This document shows positions 4,261-57,045 of a stretch of 64,000 nt of DNA, in pieces. The stretch is from Asterochloris sp. CNOR1 (lineage: Eukaryota > Chlorophyta > Trebouxiophyceae > Trebouxiales > Trebouxiaceae). Location: positions 1,178,001 through 1,242,000 of the forward strand of contig OZ017763.1 of the NCBI GenBank assembly GCA_963969365.1. Direction: 5' to 3'. Within the stretch, counting starts at the first letter, position 1. Every line of letters begins with the position of its first letter. A program made the translations under genes and the position numbers. The notes beneath the pieces are model-generated. The model saw only the letters and a list, made by a program, of their open reading frames with translations. It ran no database searches and was not told the DNA's origin.

Positions 4261-7200
4261 TCAGTCATCAGTTAGATCCAAGATGTCGTCATCAAACAGG
4301 GAATCACATGCAGAAGTCTGGACAGCTTGGAGAGGTTGCCAGTGCATAGTGTGGTGGTCAGCAAGAGACGCAGATGCCAGGCAACTCCTGCTGGATCCTG
4401 GCAGACCAGCGCCTGGCATCAGTGCAGCCATCCCACCAGTGGGGTCGCTGTAAGTGTCTGTGGCATGCCCTTCACAGCGTGCCTGCTGGGCAGTGCTTGT
4501 GTCCCAGGCTGTTGGCGCAGGCGCCTTGCCCCTTGCCTGGTCATAGTGCACTGCGATTTGAACTGGCGCCTGGGCAGCATGCGCAGCTGGCTCATGCTGT
4601 GCCAGCTGAGGATCATCGGCGAGTATCACCACGTCTGAGTCCGAGTCTGCCTGGCCAGCAGCTGGGTCCTGGCCCCCAAGCTCCTCAGCTCTGTCCTCAA
4701 TCACGATGGCATGGTCTTCATCAATACCCATTCTGGTGGCACAACAGACCTCATCACAAGCGCGGCGCTCCGCAGCAGCTGCTGCAGCCTGCACCCACAG
4801 AGGACACTGGCAAGGGCGTTCCGAGGGCACAGCAGGCTGCACTGAGCACCCACTGCGCCAGGCCACTTGCGAACACATCGAAGATGTGGGCACAGCAGTC
4901 CTTTGACGCAGAGCAGCTGCCATCACCAGCAGCGTGGCATTCAGCAGATGCCGCTGCAGCCTGACCACGCTCAACTGTGTGAAGCGCTGCAAGCATTGAC
5001 ATGCAAAGCACAGATGCACTGCTGACAGAAGCCACACAATGCTTTGAAGACAGGGCATGGCAAACAGTGCTGCCCAAGCATGGCATGGCTGCCGCAGCAT
5101 GAGCCGCCTCACCTGAGCAGGAGTCATGTCCTGCCAAGCCCTGGAGGCGCTGCCCAGCTTCTGGCCGCCCTGGGTCATCAGGGAGTGCCTTTGTCTGCGG
5201 GTCTCTGCTGCCTGCAGAAGCCAAGAAGCCTGATCAGCAACATCATCCTTTTCTCCTCATGACCATTAGCATACGCCCTCTTTGCTTCTGCCAAAAATTG
5301 CAAGCCATAGGTTTTAGCCTGGACCAGTCCCCCCAAACAACAGGAAGGCAGTGCACATGCACAGCAAGTTGGTCAAGCAGGCTGCGCATGCCGCTATGCT
5401 TCAGACGCTCCCTGTGGACGCCTGACTGCTCTCAAGCTGGCTTGGCAGCCCACACAGCATTATGCTGAAAGAACGGGCTCAGTGGGCTGCCCACACATGG
5501 TCGGGTGCCAGTAGCAGAGCGCGGCGAAGGGCATGGGGCCACCAAAGGTCACGCTTGGGATGCTGATTAGGAGCATCAGCCGGTGCAGCACACACAGGTA
5601 CACCAGGTATGCTTGCAGCAATTGCCCTCCACACGTTTTGTTATGTTTGCTTTGTGTGTGCACATTGGAGGGGCCCTGCTGCCTATGTGTGTGGCCACGT
5701 TCCTCAAAGAATCAAGTGCGCTGTAGGGCCCGCCTGGAGCATGACATTGCACAGCTGGCGGGCCCTGGGCCAGACCACACAAAACTAAATTTAGCAGAGC
5801 CTACCTTGAGCATGACATCGCGCAGCTGGTGGAGACCAGGATTGTGAACAGCCATAGGCCCACGGCCGCCCAGCTTGCCCACAGACGGGGCATCAAAGCC
5901 AACCCCTGTGCCCGCAATGCCCTTGCTGACAAACTCCTGACACTCCTGTAGGCACAGAGTGTGCTGAGTGAAAGGCTTGACTCAGCTTGCCCACAAGTCT
6001 ACAATGCCCTCGCTGGGGAATTATCCAAGTCTTGCAGGCACACGCTGGGCTTGGACAAATTTGGCAAGCTTTGGGAACAAATGGGCCCTCCTGTGCCCAC
6101 ACGGCCCTTGCTGACGTACTCCTGGCACTCCAAACGGCACAGGCTTCATCTGCACAAGGCACTGGACCAGCTTGCCCACAGATGTGGCAATGAAGCGAAC
6201 TCCTGTGGCCTCCATGCCCTTGCTGGCAACCCCCAGACACTCTAAGCCCGCAGTCCCTTGCTGGCAAACCCCTGGCCCTCCAAGCCCCCGACACTCCTAC
6301 AGGCACAGGCTCTGGTCAAGCGAGGCCTTGTCCATTGTGCACCAGACAGGGCATCGATGGCAGCCAGCAAGGTGCCACAGTGCCCTTGCTGGCCTTCAGC
6401 TGCACAATGTCATTCACTGCGCCCTGCTTCCCACCGGCACAGACAGCTGCTCACCGCCTGTATCTTGTCCAGCCAGGTGTAAAAGACGCTGTCATGGGGC
6501 CCCCGCACATTGTGCACCTGCAGCACAGGAACAGTCAAGGAAGTAAGGCTGACTATTGAGGTCGACCGGCGGCCAGCACGGCCTGCTTGCTCTGGGCCTC
6601 ACACATCACTTGCAGGCACAGCACAGAGCGCAGAAGCTCACCAGCTCATGCAGCATGGTGTTCAGCACGTGCTCATAGTGGTAGAACGTGTCCCTGCTGC
6701 CTGGCGGCCGCAGCCTGATCTTGATCTGAGAGGTGCTCCCTCCTCCACCATTCATGTTCAAGCCCAGCAGCCTGCAATGAAGGCTGCCGGTCAGTGTAGC
6801 TTTGGGGGTGGGCACATGTCTGCACTGAGTCTTACTTCGCCCTGCCAGTATGTGCTAGTCTGTGTGCTGGCCATGCCTGACTGCTGGCACCCAATGTGCT
6901 GGCTGATTGCAGGTGCTGCCAGCCTGCTGTGCTATGTAAAGTGGCCAGCTGTGATGAGGCTGGCCAACTGCAGCAGCTCTGGGGGTATGACCATGAAGAA
7001 AGCTGACCTTCAAGGAAACTGTACCTGTTGCTTTGAGGGATGAACTCAGTGACCAGGTGGCACTCCCAGCTGTGCTTGCGCATGATAGGCTGCACTTGGC
7101 GGCAGACCTGCGTCAGCAGCTCCAGGGCCTGCAGGGCATGCAATGCCACTGTCTGGGACTCGGAGGACACAGGATGTGTGTCGGCTGCAAGGCACAGTGC

Positions 7201-8448
7201 CTGCAGGATAAAGACACATGCCCGTTAGTTGACACAGTTGCCGTTGAGCTCCTCTAGGCTCTGCAGGTGGCCAGAGAGCAGTTCGTGAGCTAAGGGCAGA
7301 TGAAAGACACCAGGTGTGCTGCAGGGCACTGCAATTTGTCTATGAGCGCTTCCCTGCAGGGGGCCAATGAGCACGGTACCAGCTGAGGGCTGGAAAAGGC
7401 AGAAGACGAACTGGCTGCAGGGCACTTCAGGGCCTGCAGGACAACATACAGGAGCTATCAGATGGGACTGGCTGCACGCCTGGGTCAGCGACTTCAGGGC
7501 CTGCAGGGGGCCAGGCATCAGTTGCAGAAGCTAGAGGCCGCTTCACGCAGCCAATGTGTTGGCTGCAGGGTGCCTTAGGGCCTGCAGGACAAGCCACAGC
7601 CCTTCAGACCGCCTTCTTGGCTGAGGGGACGCAGCACACGCGACTGGGTCAGCAGCGCCAGGGGCGACAAGTTCAAGTCTTGTCACCCTCAAAGGCCATG
7701 ACCGAGGAAAGCATTGATATCACTGGAACTCAAGTACAGCACATCCATGGCCTGCAGGTCAGGGGTGCATTGGGGACAATCCAGGATTTTGCAAGGGCCT
7801 GCAGATTGTGTCTGAAAGAAGTGAAACACATACCAAGTTTGCAAGACACAGTAATACAGCGCTGGCAATTCATGGGCCTGTAAAGCATCCCATTACCCTT
7901 TGTGACTGCTGGCTGCAGCATATCCCTGGGCTGCAGAGAGGCAGAGCCTGCTGTGTGCACAGCGTACAACACTACTCGAAAGACATTGAGGCAACTGATC
8001 TGTCAGCAGAGCAACACATAGCAGAAGGGACGTGGAAATGCAGGTGCAGCCTCAGCATTGGTCAGCCAGCTCCAGGATTGCCAGCGACACGCATGCCTGC
8101 TGTTATGTTGACGGTTGACTTAACTGCAAGTGCCTTTGAATGCTTGTGCAGTGTTCTTCCCACAGCACAGTGTGGCTTGACACAGCAACTTGGGGTTGTG
8201 GTTTCAGATGGAGGCCTGCTGCACAGCAACGCCGCCGAAAGAATTTCATCAAAGCAATATCACCTGTGCACATTTTGGCTCCTTCTGCAGCACCTTGATC
8301 TCCCAGCATCTGTAAGGATCTTGAGGTCTGACCCCGTGAGACTGCACCATATGGTGAGCACACTTACAATCTTGGCAGAGACATAGGCGGGCCCAGACCT
8401 TAGGGCATTTGTGCTGGTCAGACGAGAGCTGCTTTCGAATTCAGCCAT
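4261..8448 (-). CDS. WSS1: WSS1-like WLM-domain metalloprotease (DNA-protein crosslink repair)
   Basis: Wss1/SPRTN-type proteases cut proteins crosslinked to DNA in the nucleus and are steered by SUMO. Exons: 8399-8448, 8264-8309, 7025-7128, 6642-6771, 6455-6517, 5805-5945, 5113-5211 and 4261-4788. All phases join, giving 386 residues. The WLM domain runs from CWEIKVLQ (about residue 17) through PIMRKHSW, LLGLNMN and IKIRLRPP to the zinc site HELVHNVRGPHD. That site is split between two exons; its ligands are H108, H112 and H118, and the catalytic residue is E109. Downstream come the family's GTGVGFDAPSVGKLGG and the AAE-R-R / AAERRACDE blocks. The tail has SUMO-interaction-like motifs: IVIED (about 237), DVVILADD (about 262-269) and DDDILDLTDD at the very C-terminus. 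The weakest part is exon 1, whose donor is GTCTGG. The last exon also lies in a 918-base open frame that should not be read as a separate gene. Confidence 0.87.
5722..6305 (-). repeat. Decayed tandem copies of WSS1 exon 6
   Basis: The intact exon occupies 5805-5945. On the minus strand, degenerate copies lie at about 6305-6237, 6245-6158, 6133-6050 and 6046-5978. A copy of only its 3' end lies at about 5778-5722. Shared blocks are GAGTGTCnGG, GTCAGCAAGGGC, GGCACAGG and CTGTGGGCAAGCTG, often with a CTGCAG- or CTACAG-like acceptor in front. The copies carry indels and frame changes, so they are non-coding or dying exons. They fill the intron between exons 5 and 6. Confidence 0.75.
7405..7675 (-). 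repeat. Decayed tandem copies of WSS1 exon 3
   Basis: Intact exon 3 (7025-7128) begins at CTGCAG|GCCCTGGAGCTGC and continues TGACGCAGGTC. Inside the upstream intron the same start recurs on the minus strand at about 7508 (CTGCAGGCCCTGAAGTCGC then TGACCCAGGCG). It recurs at about 7442 and 7588 as shorter CTGCAGGCCCT pieces, and at about 7650 as GCGCTGCTGACCCAG. The copies are diverged and out of frame. Confidence 0.65.
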
Positions 8449-8479
8449 AGCAGCTTCACATAGAGGAGGTGACTCCTTG

Positions 8480-8625
8480 TTGCTAATGTCTCACATGCTG
8501 CTGGCTGGCAACGAAAATGAGGAGCACCTAACATGGCCATGTGAGTGAAGTCATATACTGCTGGCTCACAAAGGAAACGAAGAGCACCAAAAATGGCCAT
8601 CAGCTCTTGTGTGAGTGCAGCGCAG
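8480..8625. repeat. Two-copy tandem repeat, about 75 bases per unit
   Basis: Two diverged units share the order GCTGGC, AACGAA, GAGCACC, ATGGCCAT and GTGAGTG. Read on the minus strand, each unit encodes a similar short peptide (MAIFGALRF versus MAMLGAPHF). This suggests duplication of a piece of coding or formerly coding sequence just upstream of the WSS1-like start. No function is evident. Confidence 0.5.
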
Positions 8626-9976: not shown

Positions 9977-11828
9977 CCCTGAAGCCCTGACATGCGCTGC
10001 AAGACACTTGTTCAGGGGACACTTGTGCCTGCCCTGGTGCTTTGCTGTGTAATGTGCAGCAATGCGCCCTAGCCGTGGGGACAGCTGCTCCTTTCCCGAA
10101 ACCAGCTCCAGGGCTTTGGCATGGCCTGCAGGCATGTCACAGCCAAGGTCCGTGGCATCGTGTTGAGGAGTTGCCCAAACCAGCCAAGGGCCGCGACTTT
10201 AGAAGAGGCAGCATCTAGGTGCTGCCTAAAGCAGGGGGTGCTCTTGAATTGCAAGACTTTTGGTGCCTTGTGCAGCCCGTCACGTGACCTGCAGGCTGGC
10301 TGGCTGCGCCTGCTCTGCAGCCTGACTCCCTAAGCAACAAAAGCTGCACGGCGGGCCAGCTATGTGCGTAAAGACAGGGCTGCAGTGGCAGCCTGAGCAT
10401 TCACTAATGACCCTGTCACACCGCCCAGCAGGCTGCCACTGCAGCCCTTTCTTCATGCATGGACGGGCTGGCTGCCTGCCTACGCCTGCTGTGCGGCCTG
10501 CGCCTTCACAACAGGGGGTTTGTACAGCAAGCCAGCAGATGGCCGCAGCAATTCATCTATGCCACTAAGCTGACAGTACAGCCTGCAGCATCTCGTTGCT
10601 GCTCACCTTGATGCAGGCAAGCTGAGCAGGCTGCCTCTGTCTGTAGCCTGCACAATGCTGCAACATGCATGCCGGCCAAGCGCCTGCTAGCAAAGCTTGC
10701 AAACTTTGCTGCCTCCTTCCTTCCTGAATGAAGGTAAAGCGGTCGAATGCCCACACTGTGGCCTGACTCTCATGTGCAAGAACGGGATGCATGGTGACGC
10801 AGCTCTGTGCCTCACATACAGGCCTCCTCATGCAATGTACTACAGGCTGCCACTGCAACCCCACCTTCATGCTGCAAGGGCCAATTGGCTGCCTGCGCCT
10901 GCCAGGCAGCCTGCCCCTGCATGGCATGGGCTGCACAGCACGTCTGCATGGGGCTTGATCGTAACCCACCCTGCGGCAGCAATGTCCTGCTGTTTCCTCA
11001 TTGTTGCGTAGCAATGGGCGCCTGCCTGTGCCGGCCATGCAGCCCTTCCTCTGCCTGGGCTGGGAGAGCTGTGCAGTAAGACAGCCCTGCTGTCCATGTG
11101 CGGCTCGTCATGCAACTGTGTGCAAGGAGCCCCGTTGCTGCCTCACCTTCTTGCAGAAATGGCCGGCGTGTAGCCTGCGCCTGGTTTGCAGCCTGTACAG
11201 CTGCTTGCTGGGCCAGCAGGGATGCCTTATGCGTACCCTCCCCCTCAGAGCTCTCGTCCGATGTTGCATCTGAGACATCGTCTTCCTCCTCGTCAGAGTG
11301 CTCTGGCATCTTTGCTATCGTTTGCGGCATGCAGTCTGCGCATAGCTTGTCGGCCTGCAAGGCAGGCCGCAGGTGTTTTCCTGCAAAACGTGGCTCGCAG
11401 CAAAGTCAGCCAAAGTCAATCCCACATCAAATGGCCCGCCATCAGTGAAGTAGTACTCTCCCACGCCAAAGTCCTGGCAGCAATTGTCACAGGGCCTCCT
11501 GTGTTGCCCCAAGACTGGCTTGCAGGTGAAGTATGTGTCATCTGCAGGTGGGCGGGGACTTAGTGCAGGGCCAATGACTTGAGGAGCTGATGTATCACAG
11601 CTCACACTTGCAGATATATCTTGTCAGCGCTTGGCAGATGTAATCAAGTATGGGATCCTCAAATTCGTCCTCAGAGCCACTCCCGGAGAGATCGCTGTCC
11701 GCTCCAGAGTCACTGCAGCAGCTCACTGTGTCAAGCACATCCGCAGTGAGTGACATTGGATTGACCAGGGTGTCGATTATATGTGAAGTTTGACTGGCAT
11801 GCCACTTGCCCTCTTTTTCAGTCCACAT
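9977..11828 (-). CDS. Unidentified acidic, Cys-rich multi-exon protein
   Basis: Not recognised. Exons on the minus strand: 11606-11828 (opens with ATG, MWTEKEGKWHASQ), about 11400-11541, 11147-11354, 10607-10723 and 9977-10125. Exon 1 has an acidic stretch (SDSGADSDLSGSGSEDEFED). Exon 2 has a cysteine cluster and aromatic patch (RRPCDNCCQDFGVGEYYF, then TDGGPFDVG). Exon 3 has CADC and a second acidic run (HSDEEEDDVSDATSDESSEG). Exons 4 and 5 look helical, with more cysteines (LCRLQTEAACSACLHQG; LSPRLGRIAAHYTAKHQG). Exon 1 joins exon 2, and exons 3 to 5 join each other, with correct phase and GTGAGC/GTGAGG donors. The junction between exons 2 and 3 is unresolved, because the two frames overlap around 11354-11400. 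The 3' end is also unknown. The paired Cys-x-x-Cys motifs could bind zinc; that is inference. Confidence 0.5.
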
Positions 11829-12014: not shown

Positions 12015-15000
12015 TCACAGCTGCCGCCACTCCGTCAAGTTGCCAGGCTCTGTCATGATGGACAGCCCCAGCCCCTTGTTCACATAAGCATGGTACACAC
12101 AGCGCAGCAGCCCGTCCGGGCCCATGAACGCCGAAGGGTGCCCCACTCCCTGCTGGTCCCATGCACCGTCTGTCCCTGAAGTTCAGAGCGTCCTTGTTGA
12201 TGCATGGGGCAGCACAGCTCCTTGTATTGACTTAGCGCTGCTTTGTAGGTAAGTATGCCAGTGAGATAGGCAGTGTGGACTGCCTGGGAGGTGCTGTGCA
12301 GGCAGACTCACGTCATGACTCATCTCAGTTGCACTGCACTCCTTGGCAGGTGGATTCACCATCAAGGCAAGGTCTGAGAACAGCCAGCCAGGTGCTGAAG
12401 GTAGCCAGCTCAAGTCACATTGCAGCGCAGTGCTTGCCTAGTAGTGTCACCACCAGGGCAAGCAGTGAGAGCAGCCCATTGATGCAGAGGAATCAAGTCA
12501 TACTGGGCTCATCAGCAAGGCAGTCATTCAAGCAGCCTCACCCTCAATGATGGGCTTGTCTCCCAGTCTAGTCCACTGTAGGCCATCGTCTGATGTGGCC
12601 AGCCCAATGGCCCACTTGCCCATGAAATTTATGATCTGCGTGCCAATCATGGTGTAGAAGAGCAGAAATTGGGGGCCATCATAGGGGTTTTGCATTATCA
12701 TGCCCCCGCGTCGGCCCCAGGCCTCCTCTGGGATCTGCACCATGGGGAAAAGGGAATTACATAGAATTTGTTGCTGCAAGCTCCAGACCCTTATGAGGCA
12801 GCTACAGGCAACAAACCCATTGCACAGGGCCCCTGCTGGCTTGTCCCAAGAAGGGGATTCGCTGCTGGCAGGGGCAAGCGGACAGCAGCAAGAATCCAAC
12901 AGGTTGCTCGTGGAGCCAACATTGTGTAGGCAGACAGTTTGCAGCTGGAATGAGCACAGGCCCAGGACAGCTACATGCAAGCAAGAAGCTTTTACCTGGA
13001 CAGGGTTGGTAAACTCCAGAAGCTGCCGGTTGCTGAAGTGCAGCCCATCGCTGGACAGGGCACAGCCAAGCTGCCAGAAGATGCGCGATGCCTCCTCACC
13101 ATTCACGACCCTGCGGCGGACAGGTGGCACTCGCGTGGCTGCTGCAACTTCCTGTGCAGGTGCTGCTCAAGTGCTGCCCTCACGCTCACAGCTTACAGGA
13201 TGGCTGGGGTGCGCAGGTAGGGGCACCTGCTCCTGCAATTGGCAGATGTTCAAAACGGGCTGCACAGGCAGCCAGATTTGCCGGGGCCAGTGCCACCCAG
13301 GCATCATTGCTGTCAGCTGGAGGAGCTCTGCTGTGGCAAAGCGTCTGCGCCTACTCATGCACAACGTCAACAGCTGACAGATGTGCAGCGTTTGCCTGCA
13401 GGGTTGCACAGGCAGTCCAGGCTACTGGTGCAGCCAGGCTGCAACCCAAAGCTCGCTGATGCATGCTGCCCCACCTGGTGCTCATCCTGCCGCCAAAGTA
13501 GTGCAGCTGCCACATGCCATCTGCACCCTGCACCAGGCTGGGGCTCATGACGAAGTCATGGTCCCAATCGCTGTCACTGGCCCCACGCTCCAGTATGCAG
13601 CCGCCCTCCCCAGGCCCTTGGACTTTGGTCCATTTCAAGCCATCTGTGCTGTGCGCAAGGCCAATCGTCACTTTCTGTGGAGCGTTCTGCAGGCACCAGA
13701 AGAGCTGCGGCAGGCCCCTAGGCCACTGAGCCTTGTGATGATGCAGAGCAGCTGAAGGCTGTCACTGCTGTGCGCCACGCTGCCTTCACATTCTGCAGAG
13801 CTCCTGACAAGTATTGAGCAACCCCTCTCAAAGCATCTCCAGTCCTGTCCACTTCAACTGTTCCCTGCTGTGTACAAGGCTATTGTCTTCTGCTAGCACT
13901 TCTGCTATGGGTTGTAAGGGGCCAAAAGTCAGCAGCAACAGAGCAGCCCTGTGAAGCCAGCGGTAGGGCGTGCTGCACAGCATATGTTGTCCTGGCAATG
14001 CTCTAAGTGGCCCTCATAAAGTGGTGTTGCTGCAATAACCCGCCCTGCAGCCCTGCAGAGCCAGCAAAACTAAGGTAGACATGCCAGCAGCTGCCTGGCC
14101 CCCTCACTGTGGCCAAGCTCCTGCATCAGCAGCCAGATGCTGCCACCAAGCTCTGCTGCCCTGTCATTGGCCTGCTGCTGGCTGGCATCCTGACAGCAGG
14201 CAAAGCTGCCCTGGTGGAACGCAGTGGCACTGTGCTGAGGTGCTTGTGTTCAAGGTGCCACATCAGCCACTGCCGGCACTGGGATTGCTCTGTGCAGCCA
14301 CTGCTACCTGAGCAGCTGACCGACCTTTTGGATTTTGGCGACGCCATGCATCGGCAGCCAGAGTTTGCCATCGATGTCTGACACACCCTCTAGGGCTAGG
14401 CCGCCCCTGTCCCAGGCGGCATCATCATTCCGGTTTCGCAGGATGACTGGCCCCTTCTTTTGCCAGGAAAGGCAATCCTTAGACTCTGCAGCAGTAGCAC
14501 AGAACTGGTATGCTGGGAAAGTCGTGCTGTGGCCTCCACAGGTGGACCTGCCGAGTCAGCTCAGCACCGGAAGCAGGAAGCCAGGAGTTCCAGGAGGGAA
14601 TTCCAGAACTTGACAGGCCTCCTGTCCATGGCTAAGTTGGCGAGCACCAGGCGCAGGTCATGGAGTCAGTGAGGCAGCCTGTGCTCCTCAGCTGTGGATC
14701 AGGCATCTAGTAGCAGAGGGTCACACACACAGAGACGGGAGTTGTGACTAGGGGCAGAGGAGGGGGGAAGGTTGAAGATGGCGGGCGCACCCAGCAGATG
14801 TAAAGTGTAGTGCAGAAGACAGAGTCAGCACACCTGCTAGGCAGATGTCTCCAGCGCTCAGGTCTGGTGCGACCTCCCCATTGGCTGCATCTTCTTGGCT
14901 GTTGGCATTATACCAAAGCCTGAAGACCTGTTCTGCTTGGAGCAGCCAATGTTTAGTGGGTGGCTTGAGAAAGGAGTCGATGCAGCCCATGCAACCGCAC

Positions 15001-16604: not shown

Positions 16605-17254
16605 CTCTTTACAATGCGGTCTGAGAGTTCCTGCAGGGAGGGTGAGGTACAAGATCAGACCCAGCAATCTAGACTGGCTCTTTTGTTGCTCCTGCAGGAA
16701 CGGTGGAGCATAAGTGCAAACTGGACCAGAGGGTTCAGACTGCTTCGGTGAAGATGAAACACAGGCTCAAGCTTGAACTTCAGACTGCGCTTTTGGTGCT
16801 CCTGCAGTGTGGGGCACACGGTCAGGTTCAAGAGTTCAGACTGGCACAGCATGCCCGAGCATGCTGGCAGGGCTCAGTGCAAGCCAGACTAGTACAACAC
16901 AGTATGAGCGGTCTACTAACCTGGGCCTGCTCGATGGGTTGTGCTTGCTGTGAGGCTCAATGTGAGGCTGGCAGAGCAGCACCTCCAGGTGGAACCTCAG
17001 ACAAATACGGCAGACATCCCCACCACTGGGCACCTGCAACAGATTGCTGTGGACCTGGAGACCACAAAGTCCAAGGGGTGTGAGGCTTCCTGCAGCAGGC
17101 AGTGGAACCATCATGCTCGGCCAGTCCAGGCAAAAGGGATATACAGCCACCCTGCCTGTGCCAGAAGTGCACATCTGGAAGTGCTTCTTTCAGACAGTGT
17201 CGAGGCTTTGCACAGTTGCATGCAACACCCCCACCTGTTGCCATCTTGCGCCAG

Positions 17255-17870: not shown

Positions 17871-18011
17871 AGATTGCCACAGGTGCCTTCACTGCTGGTC
17901 GTTGTGACAAGATCCAATGCTGCCTTCAAGCATCGCCAGGCCATTGGCACTGCCCTGAGGCTCCCCTGTACAAGGGGTGCCCCCTGTGCTCCAGCCTGCT
18001 TTGGGGCAGAA

Positions 18012-19755: not shown

Positions 19756-22700
19756 ATGCTTGCCGCCTGCACAACATTGCTCGCCGCTAGACAGGCCCAG
19801 GCTACACCCACTGTCCAGGTGAACATCTGTGTGCTGCACCTGCAGGATTCTCTGCAGGATGCTCTGCAGCTAGATGGCAAGGCCAAGATGCTCAGGAGTG
19901 GCTGGGAGAACATGGACCTTGCAGGAGGTGGTGGAGGGGCTAAAGCGGCTGAGATATTCAGGCACGTGGGATCTTTGCAGAGACTGGGCTGCAGTGTAGT
20001 GGCAGCAGCTCTTGAGGGCCGACTGCGGCAGGCTGCAACCCTGCAAGCCTGTGGGATAGTCAGACACCTGGGACATGCACAGGGTGTGTGCAATGTGGTG
20101 ACAACAATTGTTGTTGGGTGCACAGTGTGATGGGCTTCAATCATCTGCACCTGATCCAAGTCAACGTGCTATCCAGGCACGTGGGGCACGGGTGCAGGGT
20201 CTGTGCTGCAATATGGTGACATCAACATTGGGTGCACAAGTCTGCAGGCTGCATCAATGCTTGCCTGATGGACAGAAGCGGCATGTCATCATGCTGCTGC
20301 CTCCGGCTGATGCTTGACGAGGCACCCGCGCCACTGATATCAATCCTGCAGGCGCTATGATGGAGACAGCAGCGGCAACATCGACCAGGGGGAGATGATC
20401 AGAGCTCTGAAGGAGCTTGGCGTTCTGGAGGGGGTTGATGTGAGCACTGGCTGCTTGAGCTCTCTAGCGGCTCATGGCTTGCTGGGCTCGCACTCATGGC
20501 AGCCACCTGAAGGCAGCCTGCCGTGCTACCTGTGCTGCCTGCTGGCAAGCTGAGCAGCACCACTGGCCTAGGCAAACGGCAGTGCACAGTCTGCATGCTG
20601 ATGGAGCTGGGAGTGCTGGAGGCGTTGGTGTGAGCATCGATGATGGCTGCACAAGCATGGGCTCAGTCTGGTACATGCGGCTGCATACACTTATGCTGGA
20701 GAAGCTGCACGCTGAGATGCTCAGGGCAGCACCGGCCGATGCCATGCGGCAACCCAGGTCACACTGGCCCTCCTGCCTTTTTTGGCAGGAGCTACATCGG
20801 GCTGAGCCACCCCATCTGTTTTCAGTACCAACACACAATCCCTGATGTTGCATTTGACGATGTACAGGAGACGGAGGTGTTGCATGAGCTGCAGGAGATG
20901 CAGGAGGCCAAGGGCGACATGCAGCCTCACAGGGTCACACTCAAGTGACTGCCCTGCATCCAGGATGCAACGTGGAAGCCACGCAGCACTGCACACTCAC
21001 GCTTCCCAACCAGCAAGACACATGAGGTGATGCTGATGAGCAGTGTGCTGCTCTGTAGAAGAAGAAGGCGATGCAGAGGCTGCATGCTGAGATGCGGGAG
21101 GCTGACACCAACCAGGACGGCATGATCTCCTTCAGCGAATTCCTGCTCTATTTTCAAAGGATGGCGCGCTTCCAGGCTGAGCAGGCACGGCAGCAGAGGC
21201 TGGCAGGGTTTGGACGGGATGCTGCGATACCCAAAAGTGAGGCAGCAGCTTGAGAACCAGCACTGTAGCAGCTGCAGGGCTCACAGGTGCACTAGGCCAC
21301 AGAGTAGCGCCTCCGGGCTGAGTGAGGGTGTGAGCAGTGGGTGGGTGTCCTGGGCAGGGTGCTGTCAGTCAAACAAGAGAATGGGCTGCAACTGATAGCG
21401 CCGGGCCTCGCGAGGGTCTCAGCAGACCGCACTGGTACTGTGCATGTGTGAATGCTGAGCAGTCGCAGCACCAGAAGCTGGCAGGGTTGAGTTGTATTGC
21501 TGTGATCCCTGCACATTGCCGACATGTCGACAATCACTCAGGCCTTTCACCTGCATTCCACTATGTCATGCCCTGCAGGCCACCTGGCCAGTGCTGTGCT
21601 GCAGCAGGCTTTCAAGTTAGATGCTGGCTCAATTTCCCACACTGACTGACCCCGACCTACCTCTCTGCAGGCTACCTGGCCAATGCCACGCTCCAGCAGT
21701 GCTTCCGCAACTTCTGCGAATTCTCCAAGAACCACGGCATTGTGAGGCAACGCAGACAGCTGTCAGAGCTGCAGATGAACAACTTCCAGTTTGCACACCT
21801 GTGCAAGGACGCAGGGTTTGCCGAGCCGGCAGGGCGGCTGCACAGGGAGGCAATTGATGTCATCTTTGTGCGTGCTGCTCCCACAGGCAAGCGCCTGATC
21901 AGCTTCAAGGTGAGGCGTCACTTCCATGGGTCTTAGGCTCGTGCACTGGGCACATAGCAGATTCACAGGGCGCCTTCCATCGGCAGGCTCGCCAAAGGTC
22001 AGTCAGCACTGCATGGGCACCATGCTCTGCCATGAGCACCTGTGCAAGGGCGCAAAGTCTGCTGAGCCCGCAGGCAGGCTGCACACAGGGGCAGTCGAAG
22101 TGATCCACGGGCACCAGCAACAAGGTGAGCTGGGCCTGCACCCGTTTGCTGGCTTTGTGAAGGTGTCACTCATCCCGGCAGGCCTGCATGAGCAGCATCG
22201 CTGGCAGGCAAGGAGGGCAGCCTGACACCATTGATGGCGACACCTGAGCACTCTTGTACCTTCAGCGCTGTTGTTGTCATGTGCTACACAAGATTTTGCA
22301 AGACCCATGGGCCCGCCTGAGCTGTCAATGTGGATGACATGTTCACAACATGTGCTGTATTCAAGTGAACTCATAAAAGGAGGCGATTGGCGCATGAAGT
22401 CGGCTGTGTCGCACTGCAGGAGTGGCTGCAGGCGCTGGCAATGGTGGCAGAGGAGCTCACCTGCACCCTGCAAGAGGTGGCGGAGCGCCTGGGGGCAGAC
22501 CCTGCCCAGCTGCCAGGTGAGGCCTTGTGGCCTGGTTTGGGACATAGGCAGGCATCCTGCAAGCGGTGCCAGAGGGTCAAGCAGCATACCCTTCCGGCCC
22601 TCAGGGCAGACTCTGGACTGCACCCTGCAACTGGAGCAGGATGGCTAAAATAAGCCCAGCCCAGCTGCCAGGTAAATATCAGCGTTGACCTGCAGCCTGC

Positions 22701-30282: not shown

Positions 30283-33200
30283 ATGGCTTGGCAGCTATGG
30301 CTGTGTGCTGTGGCTGCAGCTTCTGCCTCTGCCTTGACAGTCACGCACTCGGGACCCAATCACGTGGAATTACAGGAGCATGCACAGGTGGACAGGCCCT
30401 CGGTTCCAGCAGACACCAGGTTCAACTCAACTTCAAGTAAGTATAATTTCCTGCAGTGTGCAAGAAGGGCTCTATGAACACTGCAAGGCTAGCCCAGTCC
30501 TCTTGGCAGAGCAGCCTGCTCTTGTGGTGTAGATCATCTGGTGGCTCAGAAGTTACACGAGGGCATGCCACAAAGCCTTGAGAGCCAGATGTCAAGCAGA
30601 TCATTGCAAAGTCTGCTTTGCACAAGCGTTTGTGCATTCCAGGGCCAGGGATGGCAGCCTCACTTGCTGGCGTACTGCGCCTGCAGATGTATGTTGCCTC
30701 AGAAAACCGGTGCTGAGGGAACTGCAGGGTGGCTGAGGTGCTGGTCTTCACCATGAGCTTGCTGCACCTCACCTGCAGGTGACATGCTTCCCAGGCAGCT
30801 GGCGCTGTGTGACTGCGAGAAGGCCACAGGAGCACCTGAAGGACTCTCCTGCGAGAAGGAGGGGTGGTTCATCTCCAACTTTGAGCGTGAAGGCTCCTGG
30901 GTGAGCTGTTGGATCGTAGGGCCCTGTGTGGGGAACCTCACAGACTGATCAGCCAGCCGGACTGGTCATCCTGCAGTGCAGAGGCTTGCATGTCATGGCT
31001 GAGTGTCACCAGGCAATCCCTGGGGCAGGAGGATGTGCACATGGTCCACAACAACACAGCAGAATGTTGGTGCTTTGGGTTTCTTTCAAATCTAAGCCCC
31101 AGTGCTCCTGGATCGCTACAACCAAGGGGCAGCTTCTGCCAAGCCATCTGCTGCTACCCCTGCTTGACCTCTGTCCCAGGCTGAAGTCTGCTGTGCCTGC
31201 TTGGCTGCAGCTGCAAGGGGGCGGCTTGGTGCCCCTGTCCCATGCCATCTGCTGCCGCCCTTGCCTGCCAGAGGAGCTGCCCGACTCTGGTGGACGCATA
31301 AGCCCAGATGAGAAGGGAGTCGCCATTGTGTCCATTGGCTGCCATGCCGCCACAGGTGAGCGCAGTGCAGACCAGCACCCTCAGTGAAGGCGGCCAGTCG
31401 AGTGGCACAGGTGCAAGTCTGCATGTGGTCAGGGGATGAACGGGCGCAGATGCAGATGCTAATTCATGCTCGTTGGCAATTGCTTCCTGAACTGCTACTT
31501 GTACAACACAACTACAGATGCTGCGCTTGCCTGCCATACAGTTTCATGGGTGTTCCACCAGAGCTGGTGCTTGCGGCTGCCCAATAACATCCACTCACAA
31601 CTTGTGCTGCAGGCCCTGGCAGCCAGTCCCTGCAATGTGAGCCCACGGGCAGCAGTTTTGTGACTGGCTTCAGCCAGGCGGTGCGTGTCGCCAGCACGCT
31701 GAATGCCTTCTACCCAATCGGCAATGTGGATTGCTGCACCCCCAGCGTCCTGTTGTCTTCAGGTGGGCAAGCACATGTGGTGGCCAGTTCTCAAAGTGCT
31801 GGCTGCCAGTCAGCAGTGCAACTGATGTGACCCCACGTCCCAGGTGAGCAAGCAGCCCCTTGCTCATATTAACAGCTCCCAACTCATTTGTGAGGTCCTC
31901 TGAGATGCCGAGTGGCAGCATGAATGCCGAGCCTGTCACAGTTACAGCACCAGGCGCCCACTGTAGGCCTGAAGTGCCATGTCACAATGCAACACCTCTA
32001 CAAAGACCATGAGATTGGTTACTGAAAGTTGTTTGTAATGCAGGGGATGCTTGGGAGCTGGAGCGCTGTGATTGCCAGTTCAGCAGCGACATCAACTGTG
32101 GAGGATTGGGCAGCCACCGCATGCTGCAGGGCTTTGAGCGCTGGAGGTAAAAATTGTTGCAGGGCAGTGTGTGCTGAAAGTGTGCAGGTCGCAGTTGTAC
32201 AGTTTTGCATTGAGCAGGCCAATGCAAGGCGCTTGCTGCTGTGAGTGTTGGACTCTCAACTTCAAGGAGTCAGCCTGGCACAGTACCAGTCTGATAACAT
32301 TCTGTGGCCAACCTCGTGTTCCCAGGGCCTGCTGCGCATAACTGCTGAGATGTTGCTTGTCCTGGAGGTCATGCCAAAACATGAAGGCAGCCAAATGTCA
32401 CATCTGCATGACTCTGGCAACATCAAAGGCTTTGACGTCAGCGCATAGCCCTCCAGAGCCAGGGTACCAGTTTTCATGTTCACCTGCCATGCAGGATCAC
32501 GCGGATGGCAGATCTGGTGCCCATCGCGCCAGCGCAGTGCTGCAAGACCTGCATCTCAGACAGGATCCACCCCCTGGACGCCTGCGTGGACCTGAACTTC
32601 TGCTCAGGGCATGGGGTGTGCAACCTTGGCAGCTGCGAGTGCCTGCAGGGGTGGGGCGGCTCTGACTGCAGCCAGGCGGTGAGTGGCGGCTGACTGGTGT
32701 TGGCTGGCACGCTATGTGACCCAGGTTCTCTTTTGATGTGGTGAGCATAGTCACAGCCACCACTTGTCAGATGCATTTCCACCAGCTGGTGCACTGCTGG
32801 TGCCCACAAGTGTGCGCCGGCTGTCTGCAGCCTGTGTCTTTCGTCCTCGCGCCCAACTTACCACGCCTTCAGCAATGCGACCATCAGCATGTCTGCCTGC
32901 TGGCCCCCCTCAACAAGCAAAGAGACTGCATCGCCATTGCTGCACCACGTTTGACAGGTCCAGCCCACTGCTGCTCCTGCCCTGCAGATGGGCAGATCTG
33001 ACCGTGGCCTCTATCACTGGCTTTGCTGTGCCTCTGCAGCTGTGCTGCAACACCGTCCACTGCCACACTGCTGTTGCCCTGCAGCCGGCCGCCTGCGGCT
33101 CACAGGTCCCCCAATCAACTCATCTTGCTGTGTGCTGGCTAGCTGCACCTTTTAACCTCTGCTTTGCACTTCGCAACTGGGCACCCTCACATTGCTCATG

Positions 33201-36200
33201 CCCTGTAGATGGGCGGCGCCGGCTCCGGCTTCCCCCAGTGGCTCATCTCGCTGATCGTCTTGGCCAGCTGCAGCGTTCTGTCCATCATCATGATGGTCAT
33301 TAGCCGAATCGTGCGCTACCACGTCCTGAGACTGCAGCGTAAGTGCTGATACTTGCAAGCAGGTGGCTGTTGTCATCTTCACTGGAATTTGTTCAAGGCT
33401 TGCCAACGTTCCAACTGTCTGTCTAAGCCTCCCAGCCTTTCCTCAGGCTGCAGCGTGACTGCCCATGCCTATGGCTGGGAGACATGCGCGGCTGTCATGA
33501 CCTCCCACGACACTGTGCTGCAGTCTCAAGGCAGCCGCCTGTCCAGCTCTGGAAGCTTTGAGTGGTGTAATTGTGATATCCTATCAATGCATGAAGTGCA
33601 CTGCCTAGGGTCGAGTCGCTCTTTGAATGCAATGCCACTGCTTGATGGCAGGGGGAGCGAACTGCTGCAAGCTGGTCAAGCCTTTGATGCTGCACCTCCT
33701 CTTGATTGAGCTGTGTCTGGGTCACCACAGGTGCTGAGAAGTCGGCCCTATCCAGACACTGAATAGTCATATGGGGTTGACCCACCGCTGTGCTTGGACT
33801 GGTCACTCAATGTGAGTGTGTTGTGACCACTGCAGGTCAGGAGGAGGAGCAGGATAGCGAGGAGCTAGGCGAGCACCTCATGCTGCGCATCGATGATGGA
33901 CGTGAGGGTAGTGTGGGTAGCCATGACACTGACGGCGACAGCGATGGGGAGGGCGTCCCCCATCCACTGGGTCAGGAAGCAGGTGATCCAATCCATCTGC
34001 CAATTGGCCTTCTGCTAGCTTCACGCGCTGGGGAGGATGGCCCTATCTGTTTGGGCAGGGCAGCAGGCGAAATCTGTTGCTGTCGGCCGGCCTGCTGCTA
34101 GCTTCTCGATGGGGCAATGAGAAGGGCGCACCCTGTCCACTAATGTGCGGGTCACCTCAAGGGACGGCCAGACAGAATGGCTCTGCAATTCACCTGCCTG
34201 CAGACTCATGTGTCCCTCTTCACTGCTTACAGTTGGTGGTGGCGTGCTGGTCTCCCCAGGAGCTGCCAGGCAGGACAGCGGAGATGCAGCCGAGTCTTTT
34301 GTGCCACCCATCCGCAACGGCATTCAACTGCAGCAGCGCAGGCGCCGCACGCCCGTGGCTGTGCGCTCTGAGGGCGATGTTGCTGAGGTGGGTTGCTGTA
34401 AGCAATCCGCCAACATGGTGCTTGTGGATGGCCTGATGCTGTGCCATCAGAGGCTGCAATGCTGCAAAACTTGTTTGCTTGGTCAGCAGTGATCTGATAA
34501 GAGCAGTGCAGGTGCCAAGTACCTGTGGCTGTGCGTACTGAGGGCAATGCTGCGAGGTGGGTGGTACCATGCTCTGCTGGTGGTCCAAACCTCCTAGAAA
34601 AATGCACGACATTGCAGCGACACTGCAACCCGCCTTCGGCTGTGTGTTCAGACAGCCATTCACGGTGTGACATGATTGGCACTGACTGCCAGCACCTGAC
34701 TATGACCAGCCTTATGGCGAGAGCACAATGGTTCGTCGTCAATGCAATCAGCCACATCGCCTTGGCATATCGTGTCTCATCTTGCTGTCTTAAAATACCT
34801 GGCAGGGAGTCCAGCAGCCTGGTCAGCCTTCCTGATCAGGCCTCCTCACGAAGAATGACGTGGTTTTTAAGATATGTCACCTTGCACATACATGACCTGG
34901 CAAGCATTGACATGGTCGCTAATACATGCCTTGCAGCTACATGATGTCGAAGACAGCGGCAGCGATGGGGAGCCAGACACAGAGGAGGACCTCAACCGCA
35001 TTGAGGCTGCAGCTGCTGCCCTGGAACAGCGCGTGGCAGAGGCAGAGGCCCGCCAAGCAGCTGCGAGGGCAGCCCCAAATCGTCCTGAGGCCACTGGAGG
35101 TGCGTATACAGGGTTCCAGTGTGCCGCACACCTCTGCACCCCTGTGTGTTCTATGTGACCCGAGGTGCGCTGAGGTGTTGAGCTGAGCAGCTGCCAGGGT
35201 AGTCCTCTCAGCGCAAGTGGATATGTGTGCACATTGTGCTCAAGTGCATTTCATGCAGTTCATGGCAGCTTCCTGGCAGCACTTGCCTGAGCAGGTGTGA
35301 GGTGCCCTGTCAAGTCGGTCCAGTCAAGCAGCCATGTCCCTCTAAGACAGGATGTGCTTGAGCTGAATCCAATGTCCTGCAGAGTTGAGCATCAGCTACT
35401 GGCATCCAAAAGTCTTTCTCCTGACAGGCCGATCATACATCTTCCATCCTGCAGGGCAGCGCATCACAGACACTGTTCAGGGCAGCAGTTGCCCGAGCTG
35501 ATCTGCACATGGCCCTGCAGGATGGTGCATTGTCCACTGTCCAGCCACTGTCCCTTGTCAGGCAGCTGTTGCCTGTTCACGATTGTCCTGGAGGGTGGCC
35601 ACACAGCTGTCAAGGCGCTGGGGCCACCTTCAAGAGCAACTTGCTTGAACTGATGTTTGAGGGCACTGCAGGGTGGCGCATCATGTACCGGCGCACTCCC
35701 CGGGCTGCAGTGACCCAGCCAGAGGCAGCTGCTCCTCCAGCAGCAGACGGTCCCCCTCCCACACCGCGGGTGCAGGTTGAGCCTGCCAGCCCACCAGACC
35801 AGCAGCCAGTGGGTGTACAAGCAGCCCCCACATCAGAGGCAGAGCCAGAGGCAGAGCCTGAGAGAAGAGAGGCACCAGGGGGCGAGATTCAGGTGACCAC
35901 AGGATACTTCAGGGACCACAATGCTTTGCATCACCACATTTGTTTGGGGGTGGTGTGATGTCAGACCAACTTCGGGCATAGGAGCTGCGGCTGCGCAGGG
36001 CTTGTGCTGTATCAAGGGGTGGCCTGTGTGTGCTGCCGCCTGTGTGTCTGGCATGTTGCCTACAAGCGACCGCTTCTTCAAGGAAGCCCCTGCCTGCATG
36101 CAGAGCTCATCCAAGGGAGCACTTGGCAATGTCATGTTTATGCGAGGGTGTACTGGGCAGCAGGCCTGCCTGAGCGACCTGCCTGAGCAACATGCCTGAC

Positions 36201-51900: not shown

Positions 51901-54900
51901 CGCCCGCTGGGCTTCCCCTTTGTCGCTCTGGAGCGACTGCAGCTGCTGGACATCCAGGGCGTGCAGTTCTGCTTGAGGGCTCCCAAACACTCTCTGAACA
52001 CTCACGCCTACAGGTGGGCGCAGGAGCTGCGGTCGGCTGCGTTTGTGGCTGAGGCTGGGCCATGGCTGGCCTATATCTGTGCACAGGCAGACAGCTGTGC
52101 TGACTGGTTGAGAACTCCAGAGCTGGTCACTGACTCAACAGTGGTGGCTTCTCATACGCAGAGGGCAATGCAGCCTCAGATGTGCATGCATTCGGCGTGC
52201 TATGGCCTCAGCTGTGCATTGTTGCCCATTTGCTTCCACAGTACACACCATTCCTGCTTGTCAGCCCTTTGACTGCCTGCCCTGGTCTGCTTGCTGCATG
52301 AGCCGCCCCATCTGGCCCCCTGAGCAGATTGTACCCAAGAGAGAGGCAATGCGCTTGGGGGCAGGCCTGAAGTGCGCCAGCTGGCAGCTCACAAGCGCCA
52401 GCCTGGCCATCATAAGTGCACCGGCAGTTCCAGGAGGCTTAGGCCTGCACGTTATTGACATCACAATGAGCTGCCTCCTTGGCTGCAGGTATGACAGGCT
52501 TCAGGTGCCAGCTTCTGTTACTGAGCTTCGAGTGGGGGGCCGCCATGCAGCTGTCAAGTCAGTATCTCTGCAGAATCCTGAGGGCCTGCAGCGGTTGACA
52601 CTGCACCAAGGCTGCACGATGGTGGATGAAAGGAGACTGTGGGCCAGCACGCACCTGCAGGTGAGTAGCTTGAAATATGACATGGCCTCCATTCTTGCAG
52701 TGTCCATTCAGCCCAGCTTCAGCTGGTGCTGTGCAATCTCGCTGCAGCAGTAGGACCTTGTCAAGATTGACCTTGTTATGCAATTGAAAGTTGGGTGTAC
52801 ACTTAGGGAAAGGCATAGGCCCACCACGTCAAGAGGCTACACGTTGAACCACGAGAAGAGGCTGTTGACCAGCTAGCATGGGCAGATGCGCTGCAGAAGC
52901 AGTGTGCTGCAACAACAGGCAGCCAGGATGTTTGTCTGAAGCCTCTGGAAGCACAGCCTGGGAGTACTGTGCTGCAGCTGTGTAAATCTGTCTACAGCTT
53001 CTGGGCAGCTAATGGCAGCAAGAATTGGAGCATTGATTGGCAGGGGTTTAAAGGAGGGTCAGCTGAAGGAGGCACATGCCTTGGGTGCTGCTGACTGCAG
53101 ATGCCCCAATAAGGTACATGCTGCACCTTGGCTTGCTCTCACCCCCGGTCAACATGCAGGTCTGCAGGTCTGCACTCATCCTCGCTATAAACAATGCACA
53201 GGATCCTCCTGGGTGTGCCCTGCAGGTCACCTACAGGTCTGTGCCCAGCACTTTTGGCAGCAAGCACTGGCCACGCCGCCACTGGGGCCAGGTCACAGGG
53301 GTCATCTGCAGGTGAGAGCCTTGCAGACCACGCAGTGCCAGTCACCCCTCCCCGAGCACGGCGTCATGGGGGTTGGATCAGCAGCAGGCTGATGGAAGCC
53401 ATGCAGGCCATGCCATGCACTGCTTCTCCCTGAGTCCAGCTCAAATGGCAAGTATCAGGTCATGCAGTGCATTTTTTGCGAGGGCTGCCTGCGCTACATT
53501 TAGAGGCATTGGCAGGTGAGAGGGCCACATGGAACAGGCCTTGTCACACGCCCTCGCGCGTCATCAACTGCATGGCTGGATCCTGGCCAGGCAGCGCACA
53601 CTCAGCTTCACTCACTCCTGAAGTGCCACGACTTGAGGACGAGCTTGGGGTGCAGGCAGCCTGGCAGGCTGTCTCAAACCACTTGCAGAAAATGTTTGGT
53701 GAAGAGCGCATCGCATGTGATGCAGCTTGTGCCCGTGCAGGATGCCCAACAAGGGGATTCTCGCGCGCCGCGGCGATTCTGAGGTGCCTGTGCCCCCTGA
53801 GGTGCAGCGGCTCAGTTTGCTGCACAGGCTGCAAGGGCTTTGCAACTTTGTGCTGGGTACCTCTGACCACATTACTACCCTTCCCTACCTGACGTGAGTC
53901 TGGAGCTGTCTTGCCCTGCTCACTCTGATACAGTTATTTGCAGGAGGCTGCATACATTTGATTGCAGCAATGGTGGTTGCACTTGTTTGGCATGAAGACC
54001 ACAGTGGTGGGCTCCTGAAGCAGCAGCTGCTGCTGTCATAGCCAAAGTAACGCTCCTTCTGCTGCACACGATGCAATGCTTTGTTGCCTGCGCCTGAGCA
54101 CCTGTCCAGCACTGCTTGCGCAGTGCATCAGCAGGGCCAGACGTTGTCAGAGCAAGGTTCTGCTGCTTGCACTCAGAAGACGTTGTCAGAGAACGCTTGC
54201 CTGTCTGTGCACACACACTCACGTCATCCACAGTCCTCCACACCAGGCAGCTTCTTGACAGTGTCCAAATCTAAACTGGTTCATCTGTGGATGATCCCAG
54301 CAGTCACCAGTCCCCACAGAGCCCAACAGTGTGACTGGTGGGACTGTGCAGGCACCTGGAGCTCCATGTGGCATCTGGCTTCAGGACTCTGACCCTCCAC
54401 GGCGACTATGTCCCGGCCCTTCGGTAAGCTCCCAGCCTTGACTCTGAAGATGGTACAAGCACTTGTTGGTCAGAGGACACCCATCTGCACAGAAGAGGGA
54501 TCACACCTTCCCTGGGGTTCAGCCTGCCTCGTCCATGCATGTTCCCTGGGTTTCAGCCTTCCTCATCCGCGCGCGTTACTGGCATCAGCCTGATGCCGTC
54601 ACAGGCAGCACAGGCACCATATGTGCATGCCACCCTCTGGTTGCTCATGACTCAGCACCTCGTCCAGATTTTGGAGCAAGATGCAGTCAAACTTTCATGC
54701 TGAGCCTTGGGCCTGATCGACAAGCCACACAGTCTTGTTGTGCTGCAGGACGCTTGTGCTAGATCAGGAGGCGGGCATCCCACCAATCAAGCGCGGCGCC
54801 ACCCCTGAGGGCACTGCCTGCAAGTGCTGCTTCCTCCTGCCGCATTGCCTGCACCGCCTCAGCGTGACAGAGACCAGCCCTGGGTTTGGCATCAGCAAGG

Positions 54901-57045
54901 GACTCCTACAGCGGGTGAGCAGTGTGCCTGAGGCACATGTCTGCATCGTTGACACGTACAAGCCAATGTCAGCAGCTGAGATCATGCAAGGGCCTCAGTC
55001 AGCACGGGGAGCTTCTGAGCAGGAACCCACCTCAGCCTCGTCCTGACAGAGACCGGCCCTGGGGTTGGCATCATGATAGAAAAGTGACCATGGTCTGCAC
55101 ATGATGTGGTGTCTGCCACTGCGAAGGCGTGAGCGCCCCCTGGGTGAGCCAGCATTGCCCTTGTCGCTGTCACAGCCACCATGAGTGCCTTTCCTGGGTG
55201 CCAGCTTTGCCTGCGTCGCCATTTGCAGCCACCATAAACAGCGACTGGGCTGTGGTCCCCAGCTGTTAGACCTGCTGGTGGCATATGATGTGGTGTCTGC
55301 ACCTGCTTGAGTCTGCCACAGCAGGCAAGGCCAGAGCCGCCTCGTGCAAACCTTTGCTTTTGGTACTGCTGCTTTGAGCCCTGCTGCCTTGAGCCATCAC
55401 CGCAGTCTGAAGACAACAGCCAAAGAGCCTGGGCGGGGCCTGGCGATTTTGGAGCCAATCACTGGCGCAATAGCCTGTGCCATGTGCAGTCCTCTCCCCT
55501 TTTGGAAGGTGCATGAGTGTCTCAGAACTCCAGATACATCAGGCAACCACATGATAAACATCATCTAGCCGCAGTGTTTGGTGACATGCGCATGCCTTAG
55601 GTCTTCAGATGCTCAAGCTCAAGTACGCTGCACACCGTCAGCCAGCAAGGGGTGAACTTGACTGGCATGTGCCTGCACCAAGCGATGACTGCTGCGTGCA
55701 GGAGCTTCTGCAAATGAAGGAGCTGCGCGAAGTTGGGCTGCACGGGTTGCGGCAGAAGGGCCTGGTCACACTCCCTCCCTCAGTGACAAGGTGAACGGAG
55801 ATGGCTCAGCTGCACCTGATCAGTGTGCTTGCTGCTGCTCATGCTGTACTGTGACATGCTGTCTGGCTGCTCGCTGATGTGCTTGCCAGGGCACCCTCCT
55901 TTGGCAGCAGACAAGGAGGTATGGCGTCGCCACATAAGGAGGAGGCAATCCGCTCTGTCCACCATTGGGATCTGCAAAGACAGTGTGTTACTCAAGCCCA
56001 CCAAGGGCATGTGTGTTGGGGGCCGAGTCTGTAGCTGGTACCGCCCAAGTTTGGCCTAGCTCAATGCTGAATGCGCTGAAAACACGTCTGCTCACCCAAA
56101 TCCCATATCACTCTGCGCTGTTTTCTGCAGGCTGGATCTGTCCAGGAGCATCCTCTCCCCAGATTCACAGAGCCTGCTGGCATCCATGGACCACCTAGAG
56201 GAAGTGGTCTTGCCATACGCAATAGAGGCGCCATACCGTAGCCTTCAGGTAAGGAGACAGCTTGCTGACAGTCTGCTTGTACACAGCAGGTTGAGGATTC
56301 AGCACATAAGTTCAGATGCTTTGAAGGTTGATGCAGGCCAGAGGTAGGCCCCACCTAACAGTGGCTGACTGGTGTGGTTTGGTGGCTGCAGGACAATCAG
56401 CTACTGCAGACGCTGAAGCTCAATCATGTGCACGTCAAGTATGCACACCAGGATGCTGATGTGTTGTATTCACTCTGGTCTGTCTGAGATTGTGCGTGCT
56501 GAGGCAGGTCTGTCTGATTTCATGAAAGTCTCTGTGGCATACCCTGTTGTTGGACCTGCCCTGCCTGCTAGATGTCTGACAATGCATGCCAGTATCCAAC
56601 AACTCTCAGTGCCCTTGAGGGAGACATGTGCAGCACCATTTTGATGTCCTGTCACCCTTGCTTACCATGGGAAGCTCTCTGGAGGAGAGCCCAATTCACA
56701 GTTCTAAGATTCTTTTGACGCCTCTCACAGTCAGACAGGGTGTTGCCACTGCCTTTTAGAAAAGCGCAACAAACATTGGTTTCCTTTGCCACACACAGAT
56801 TGCCTTACACATTCACACGCGGGGTCAAGAGTGCACCAGGAGCGCAGATACGTCAGCATGCAGGTCAGCCGCAGCAAACATTCATAATCAGCACTGGGTC
56901 ACGTCTGCAGACATCCAAAGCTCTGCAGGACCTAGAACCACTGGCCTGCAGCGGGCAGTACGACAACGCAGACTGCCAACACAGACAGCGACACAGCTGG
57001 CCTCAGACGGGCAAGCTCCTTCTCAGGGCTGCCAACTCAGCTTGA
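45901..57045 (+). CDS. F-box / leucine-rich-repeat protein (SCF substrate-receptor candidate)
   Basis: F-box proteins dock on Skp1 in SCF ubiquitin ligases, and their repeats choose the substrate. Exons: 45901-46129, 47576-47754, 48187-48281, 49474-49540, 49758-50045, 50626-50714, 50994-51137, 51879-52013, 52489-52660, [one unresolved], 53741-53893, 54749-54914, 55609-55790, 56131-56248, 56392-56438 and possibly 56799-57045 (stop). The F-box core spans exons 2 and 3: LWTGIPDALLGRVLPRLSF, then VCRAWRTACRRLP. Later exons read as leucine-rich repeats: LTHLTLELDPV, LQSLKLVVRG, LQHLNLSGCNFELP, LERLQLLDIQG, LQRLTLHQGC, LRLDLSRSIL-like segments and LLQTLKLNHVHVK. The first intron is about 1.45 kb. 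The start could instead be the internal ATG at about 46036. Phase requires one further exon between 52660 and 53741. The terminal exon is the least certain. Confidence 0.7.
48060..48160 (+). repeat. Decayed copies of the F-box exon 3 start
   Basis: The true junction at 48181 reads CTGCAG|GTCTGCAGAGCATGGCGG. Upstream, CTGCAGATCCGCAGAGCCTGGCGG occurs in two pieces at about 48072-48095, and a weaker CTGCAAGTCTGCATAGCCG at about 48119-48138. Both keep the acceptor-like CAG, and both lie in the intron before exon 3. Confidence 0.75.
49245..49262 (+). repeat. Poly-C tract with one interruption
   Basis: Nearly uninterrupted cytosines (one T) lie in the third intron of the F-box gene. The tract could form an i-motif, or a G-quadruplex-prone strand on the other side. 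It is also a place where sequencing error is likely. Confidence 0.8.
52661..53740 (+). other. Intron region of the F-box gene hiding one missing exon
   Basis: The exon before ends in phase 0 and the exon after begins in phase 2, so at least one exon is missing from the model here. Decayed junction copies confuse the search: CTGCAGATGCCCCAATAAGG at about 53096 resembles the real junction GTGCAGGATGCCCAACAAGG at about 53735. I could not choose the exon with confidence. Confidence 0.4.

Follow-up and report, generated by a model that had tools for sequence, protein, structure and literature searches.

Diverged exon copies in the introns of an Asterochloris genome: a probable origin in ancient short-range tandem duplication

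Why do introns in a 64,000-nucleotide stretch of the Asterochloris sp. CNOR1 genome (contig C18, positions 1178001-1242000; hereafter the window) hold diverged copies of the exons beside them? An earlier note on the window had attributed these copies to a local duplication process that repeatedly strikes exon boundaries, so that introns grow by copying the exon junctions that flank them. The pattern is real, but its cause is mostly ordinary: tandem duplication that, as far as tested, is not aimed at exon edges. At a probability of about 75%, we favour the reading that many short-range tandem duplications, mostly with units of about 100-400 bp, arose with no strong regard to exons, are mostly ancient and have decayed in a nearly neutral manner.

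The genome comprises 56,383,464 bp in 21 contigs and is rich in introns. Its size, guanine-plus-cytosine (GC) content and intron load are similar to those published for the Asterochloris glomerata genome (56 Mb; 56-62% GC over 98% of the sequence; a mean of 9 introns per gene; PMC6652019). The sequence analysed amounted to 285,839 bp, made up of the window, a further 130 kb taken as 13 stretches of 10 kb at arbitrary round coordinates, and loci retrieved through searches. In genes for HSP70 and CCT proteins, 66 introns of 174-885 bp were resolved from 67 candidate junctions, with a donor resembling CAG/GTGGG and the acceptor CTGCAG/G. A small hidden Markov model (HMM) gene finder was trained on 95 exon pieces, which were the matches in sampled loci among the 141 HSP70 and CCT matches listed, and when run on those same pieces it recovered 13,813 of their 16,647 bases. 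Exon statements beyond the protein-family pieces depend on this HMM.

Pairs of similar segments were counted by blastn self-comparison at a score of at least 130 and lags of 100-700 bp, and overlapping pairs were merged into loci. This resulted in 70 same-strand pairs in 48 loci, which occupy 6.6% of the 285,839 bp and have a median lag of 215 bp; no minus-strand pair was detected in the same sequence at this score and these lags. A tandem array at about 17.2-17.9 kb of the window (the 17-kb array) was left out of these counts and of the exon-shuffle test, the intron-register test and the ungapped lag scan described below. It was retained in the window self-comparison, a comparison at a laxer threshold, a density analysis of a 255,839-bp subset and a scan for exact repeats. 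Within the 255,839-bp subset, the same blastn settings gave 66 same-strand pairs (3 from the array) and no minus-strand pairs. Per 1e8 position pairs, their density was 8-144 at these lags and about 0.2-1.3 past 1 kb, which places the signal far above chance. At the laxer threshold, 49 same-strand matches less than 300 bp apart were found, compared with 4 on the minus strand. The ungapped lag scan, run as a second method on the whole sample after simple repeats had been removed, found 83 segments at lags of 20-1000 bp, none of them at 400-1000 bp, and no segment at control lags of 1500-2500 bp. Self-comparison of the window yielded 26 matches at E<1e-3, every one at most 700 bp apart. The 17-kb array contributed 10 of these rows; of the others, 11 were direct repeats and 5 were inverted or palindromic matches. 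The blastn scan returned no pair at lags below 100 bp, probably because matches close to the main diagonal are discarded by blastn; these lags were covered instead by the window self-comparison, the exact-repeat scan and the ungapped lag scan.

The two members of a pair lie close together in direct orientation, in some cases head-to-tail or as part of a multi-copy array, and pairs occur in non-coding sequence as well as across exons. Arms abut or overlap (within 15 bp) in 12 of the 70 pairs, and several lags were found in 11 of the 48 loci. The other pairs match over part of the unit, which is what decay would leave, and pairs with long units have diverged too far for their breakpoints to be placed to the base. 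The window is typical of the genome sample, with 11 loci per 64 kb as compared with 20 per 130 kb in the 13 sampled regions (0-4 in each). Among the papers listed by literature searches, which covered few subscription journals and are therefore weak evidence of absence, none described such a pattern for a green alga.

Three of the 11 loci in the window were searched for dispersed copies through the genome, the other eight being compared within the sample. Genome-wide searches with 10362-11407 and with 21671-22419 returned no match but the query itself, and a search with 5946-6454 returned only itself and the copy in the adjoining exon; dispersed repeats were thus not found for these three loci. 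The searches skipped very common words and were weak near 70% identity, so the lack of a match does not prove rarity; those with 21671-22419 and 10362-11407 missed the diverged copy within the query itself, and copies near 70% identity could escape. The local duplication mechanism proposed in the earlier note is supported by copies that are local, on the same strand and, at the three loci tested, undispersed. The further claim that no shared consensus links the copies holds for these three loci, but not for the 17-kb array, which lies within a dispersed family. This family is represented in the window by 17068-18518, a stretch that includes a palindromic tandem array with units of about 164-179 bp. 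Its relatives are near 740.9-741.2 kb of contig C15 and 3335.7-3337.1 kb of contig C6, with identities of up to 92% over 63 bp and of 73-75% over about 300-360 bp.

Whether duplication favours exon junctions, with introns growing through copies of their flanking exons, was examined by comparing exons with other sequence. Predicted exons of at least 60 bp with 1 kb on either side (219 in the 255,839-bp subset) were compared with their own 1-kb flanks, and a copy was scored when the match beat all 60 random flanks. Own-flank copies were found for 23 of the 219 exons, against 4 in the reverse-strand control. The near-distance, same-strand excess of own-exon matches that had been predicted was present, though it was equalled by length-matched non-coding segments (24 of 218, with 3 in the reverse-strand control). 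In 1000 position shuffles of the 48 loci, the number of exon edges inside loci was as expected (50 compared with 52). An arm spans an exon edge at 24 of the 48 loci, so copies do commonly cross splice junctions, but this does not exceed expectation (20.0, P 0.13), and 17 of the 48 loci have no exonic arm. CTGCAG, suggested as breakpoint microhomology, was rejected in that role. It is the acceptor consensus and ends 39 of the 66 resolved introns, and arm edges fall within 8 bp of it no more often than random nearby positions do (22 of 280, or 0.079, compared with 0.088). The window contains 242 copies of CTGCAG where 139-171 are expected.

A link to exons does emerge from the same shuffles, and it speaks for junction copying. 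Loci overlapping an exon numbered 36 of 48 (25.4 expected, P 0.002), and 29 of 48 had exactly one exonic arm (16.8 expected, P<0.001), as did 17 of 31 in the window and sampled regions only (9.7 expected, P 0.004). The mean exon fraction of arms was 0.277, compared with 0.19 by shuffling. The simplest cause of the excess of exon-overlapping and one-exonic-arm loci is that a pair stays visible longer when selection freezes one arm. In simulations that followed the Jukes-Cantor model, with 0.12 indels for each substitution and selection represented solely as a frozen arm, 1676 of 2500 pairs were detected with one arm frozen, compared with 884 of 2500 with none (1.9-fold). When this factor was applied by hand, the expected number of one-exonic-arm loci rose from 16.8 to about 24.5 of 48. 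Consistent with frozen-arm visibility, the exon part was more alike than the sequence beyond it in 20 of 27 edge-crossing pairs, not all of which are independent. Given the equal own-flank rates and the unremarkable placement of edges, junction-directed copying is unlikely.

Several points weigh against short-range duplication without strong regard to exons. The excesses of exon-overlapping and one-exonic-arm loci are themselves such points, and the 29 observed still somewhat exceed the corrected expectation of about 24.5, so that a mild true preference for exons is possible. Pooled identity differed little between the exon part and the sequence beyond (0.653 and 0.634). At the 29 one-exonic-arm loci, the copy was downstream of its exon in the direction of transcription 20 times and upstream 9 times, a bias not foreseen under this account. 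Strictly adjacent arms were absent in 58 of the 70 pairs. In the comparison of exons with their copies, third codon positions were only a little more diverged than the other two, and in-frame stops were fewer than random change would give. The exon calls are our own, and all figures come from this single eukaryotic genome.

The codon-level observations bear on a second alternative, in which tandem exon duplication has given rise to mutually exclusive exons that would still be in use. Such exons likewise have their sequence duplicated into a neighbouring intron. Only 4 in-frame stops were found in the copies, compared with 13.7 expected under random change (20 compared with 23.6, and 18 compared with 23.0, in the two offset frames), and the aligned part was free of stops and frameshifts in 7 of 29 copies. 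Some copies may therefore be missed real exons or may formerly have been used. However, the remaining 22 of 29 carry a stop or frameshift, and mismatches were spread nearly evenly over codon positions 1, 2 and 3 (0.302, 0.294 and 0.338), which indicates that the copy decays with little constraint at the protein level. The excess of synonymous codons among those with a single change was small (0.312 compared with 0.259 expected). At 36 copied positions, splice dinucleotides were kept in 17, lost in 17 and gapped in 2, where about half would be retained under neutrality. These data make alternative exons still in use quite improbable. Across the 29 exon copies, amino-acid identity was just 0.50, with 51 frameshifting gaps.

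Tandem duplication is also a published source of new introns, and in that work (PMC4974935), on ATP2A1 and potato RdRp, the duplications likewise cross exon-intron boundaries. Local tandem duplications across exon edges do exist here. However, the copies lie within introns, and the register expected of a new intron was absent: in-register identity between donor and acceptor was at background both in the 66 resolved introns (0.263 compared with 0.254) and in 338 predicted introns (0.253 compared with 0.256). No intron reached the threshold of 0.45 in either set (0 of 66 and 0 of 338), although the largest value rounds to 0.45. Intron gain by this route was rejected on the register test, and we regard it as very unlikely.

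The ages of the duplications were taken from the ungapped lag scan, with those from blastn treated as secondary, because blastn recall was biased: when 20 duplications were planted at each of the identities 1.0, 0.97, 0.93 and 0.88, it recovered 10, 11, 17 and 14, respectively. Among the 70 blastn pairs, gap-excluded identity ranged from 0.55 to 0.84, and none reached 0.85, where a simulation at constant rate expects about 31%. In the ungapped scan, only 4 of 52 segments at lags of 100-400 bp reached 0.85, all of them short (31-47 bp), compared with about 40% in simulation under the assumptions given above. The cut for young segments (identity of at least 0.88 and length of at least 48 bp) was set post hoc, and a 47-bp segment at 0.894 just misses it. 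At shorter lags, 4 of 8 segments reached 0.90 (20-50 bp) and 5 of 23 reached 0.85 (50-100 bp). None of 32 exact repeats of at least 16 bp within 1 kb extended, at a lag of at least 60 bp, over 60 bp at 0.90 identity, the 17-kb array excepted; that array has stretches near 90% identity and would count as one younger exception. The continuing growth of introns by units of at least 100 bp, as implied by the earlier note, is not supported by these results.

Because all old pairs were once young, a constant birth rate combined with loss of young copies cannot give this spectrum; the rate of birth or fixation of long-unit duplications has probably fallen. Assembly collapse is an improbable cause of the missing young copies: it might conceal pairs that are nearly identical, but scarcely pairs at 85-95% identity, and these are missing as well. 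Rapid divergence of duplicated DNA by mutation resembling repeat-induced point mutation (RIP), which could account for the identity ceiling near 84% and the lack of pairs at or above 0.85, was rejected on the substitution spectrum and is extremely unlikely, as the transition-to-transversion ratio was 0.70 and a C-to-T excess was absent. At codon positions 1-2, the exon bases A, C, G and T were changed in the copy at rates of 0.33, 0.27, 0.27 and 0.34, respectively.

A more specific scenario can be offered only tentatively. In this lineage, a genome-wide episode of 100-400 bp duplication may have lengthened introns and then nearly ceased, leaving a dated layer of decayed copies while 20-50 bp duplication continues; the long-unit mechanism, or the selective tolerance of it, would then have been switched off separately. 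If the lack of young copies were confirmed genome-wide and in relatives, a burst of intron lengthening could be dated by it, and a dated burst would permit a change in mutation rate to be tested against a change in the strength of selection.

Under the favoured account of short-range tandem duplication, units mostly of about 100-400 bp would arise at short range without strong regard to exons. Where a duplication covers part of an exon, splicing would retain one intact exon while the surplus piece decays in the intron. Selection would hold the exon arm, so that pairs with an exon arm could be recognised for about double the time of those confined to introns, and this longer visibility would make exon copies prominent without any targeting. 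Long-unit duplications would have formed chiefly in the past, as the missing young pairs suggest, while units of 20-50 bp still arise. Replication slippage, template switching and unequal repair are candidate molecular steps, among which the decayed breakpoints do not discriminate.

Ordinary short-range tandem duplications and close direct repeats, a subject on which Achaz and colleagues have reportedly worked, resemble the copies described here, which are local, on the same strand, close together (some of them adjacent) and, at the loci tested, undispersed. Compared with ordinary short tandem insertions, the units here are longer (100-400 bp) and nearly all old. Introner elements and transposons also place repeated sequence in introns, but no dispersed copies were found for the three loci tested. 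What appeared to be an exon-copying system thus becomes a testable account of intron lengthening, by tandem duplication and the unequal visibility of remnants that contain exons. The same bias in visibility could mislead those who find intronic exon fragments, whether visually or through sequence similarity.

The 11 direct-repeat loci of the window are the following; the first six have an arm in a predicted exon.
5853..6396, minus strand: 5' part and acceptor side of a predicted exon of a WLM gene; the intron upstream holds decayed copies
10286..11407, minus strand: multi-copy array with lags of 176, 282 and 410 bp, overlapping predicted exon 11147-11354
14086..14380, minus strand: duplication, lag 225 bp, one arm in predicted exon 14325-14485
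21174..21509, plus strand: duplication, lag 278 bp, from an EF-hand gene's predicted exon 21059-21236 into the next intron
21738..22105, plus strand: duplication, lag 240 bp, from predicted exon 21671-21909 of the EF-hand gene into the next intron
54848..55073, plus strand: duplication, lag 179 bp, from predicted exon 54749-54914 into the next intron
2290..2485: duplication, lag 126 bp, no exonic arm
7097..7607: array, lags 147, 230 and 372 bp, no exonic arm
19951..20275: duplication, lag 215 bp, no exonic arm
32934..33277: tandem array of about 2.8 units with overlapping arms, lag 123 bp, no exonic arm
34332..34564: duplication, lag 170 bp, gap-excluded identity 0.79, no exonic arm

At the first locus, the predicted exon is 5805-5945, its pair partners are 6073-6192, 6147-6299 and 6251-6396, and the gene matches the WLM domain of Pfam (E 7e-29). 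The gene that carries the loci at 21174..21509 and 21738..22105 has Pfam matches to EF-hand and p25-alpha, and a Pfam search of the gene at 54848..55073 gave no match. A further candidate exon copy at 36303-36416 was weak (z 2.6). Copies of exons in adjacent introns, as reported in the earlier note, were thus confirmed at six loci of the window, but its count of at least six genes appears too high: the six loci fall in three HMM gene models, the first of which fuses neighbouring genes, and we judge them to represent four or five real genes.

Other features were encountered in the window and in the sampled genome. An AAA ATPase gene on the minus strand at 38374-45243 of the window has Pfam matches to AAA_2 and AAA. 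Presumably, it resembles HslU of the bacterial type. The RNase MRP RNA gene lies at 59737-59937 on the minus strand of the window (Rfam RF00030, 97.3 bits). On contig C13, two HSP70-family matches 25 kb apart (1549656-1549835 and 1574821-1575000) have identical scores and are possibly a recent segmental duplication.

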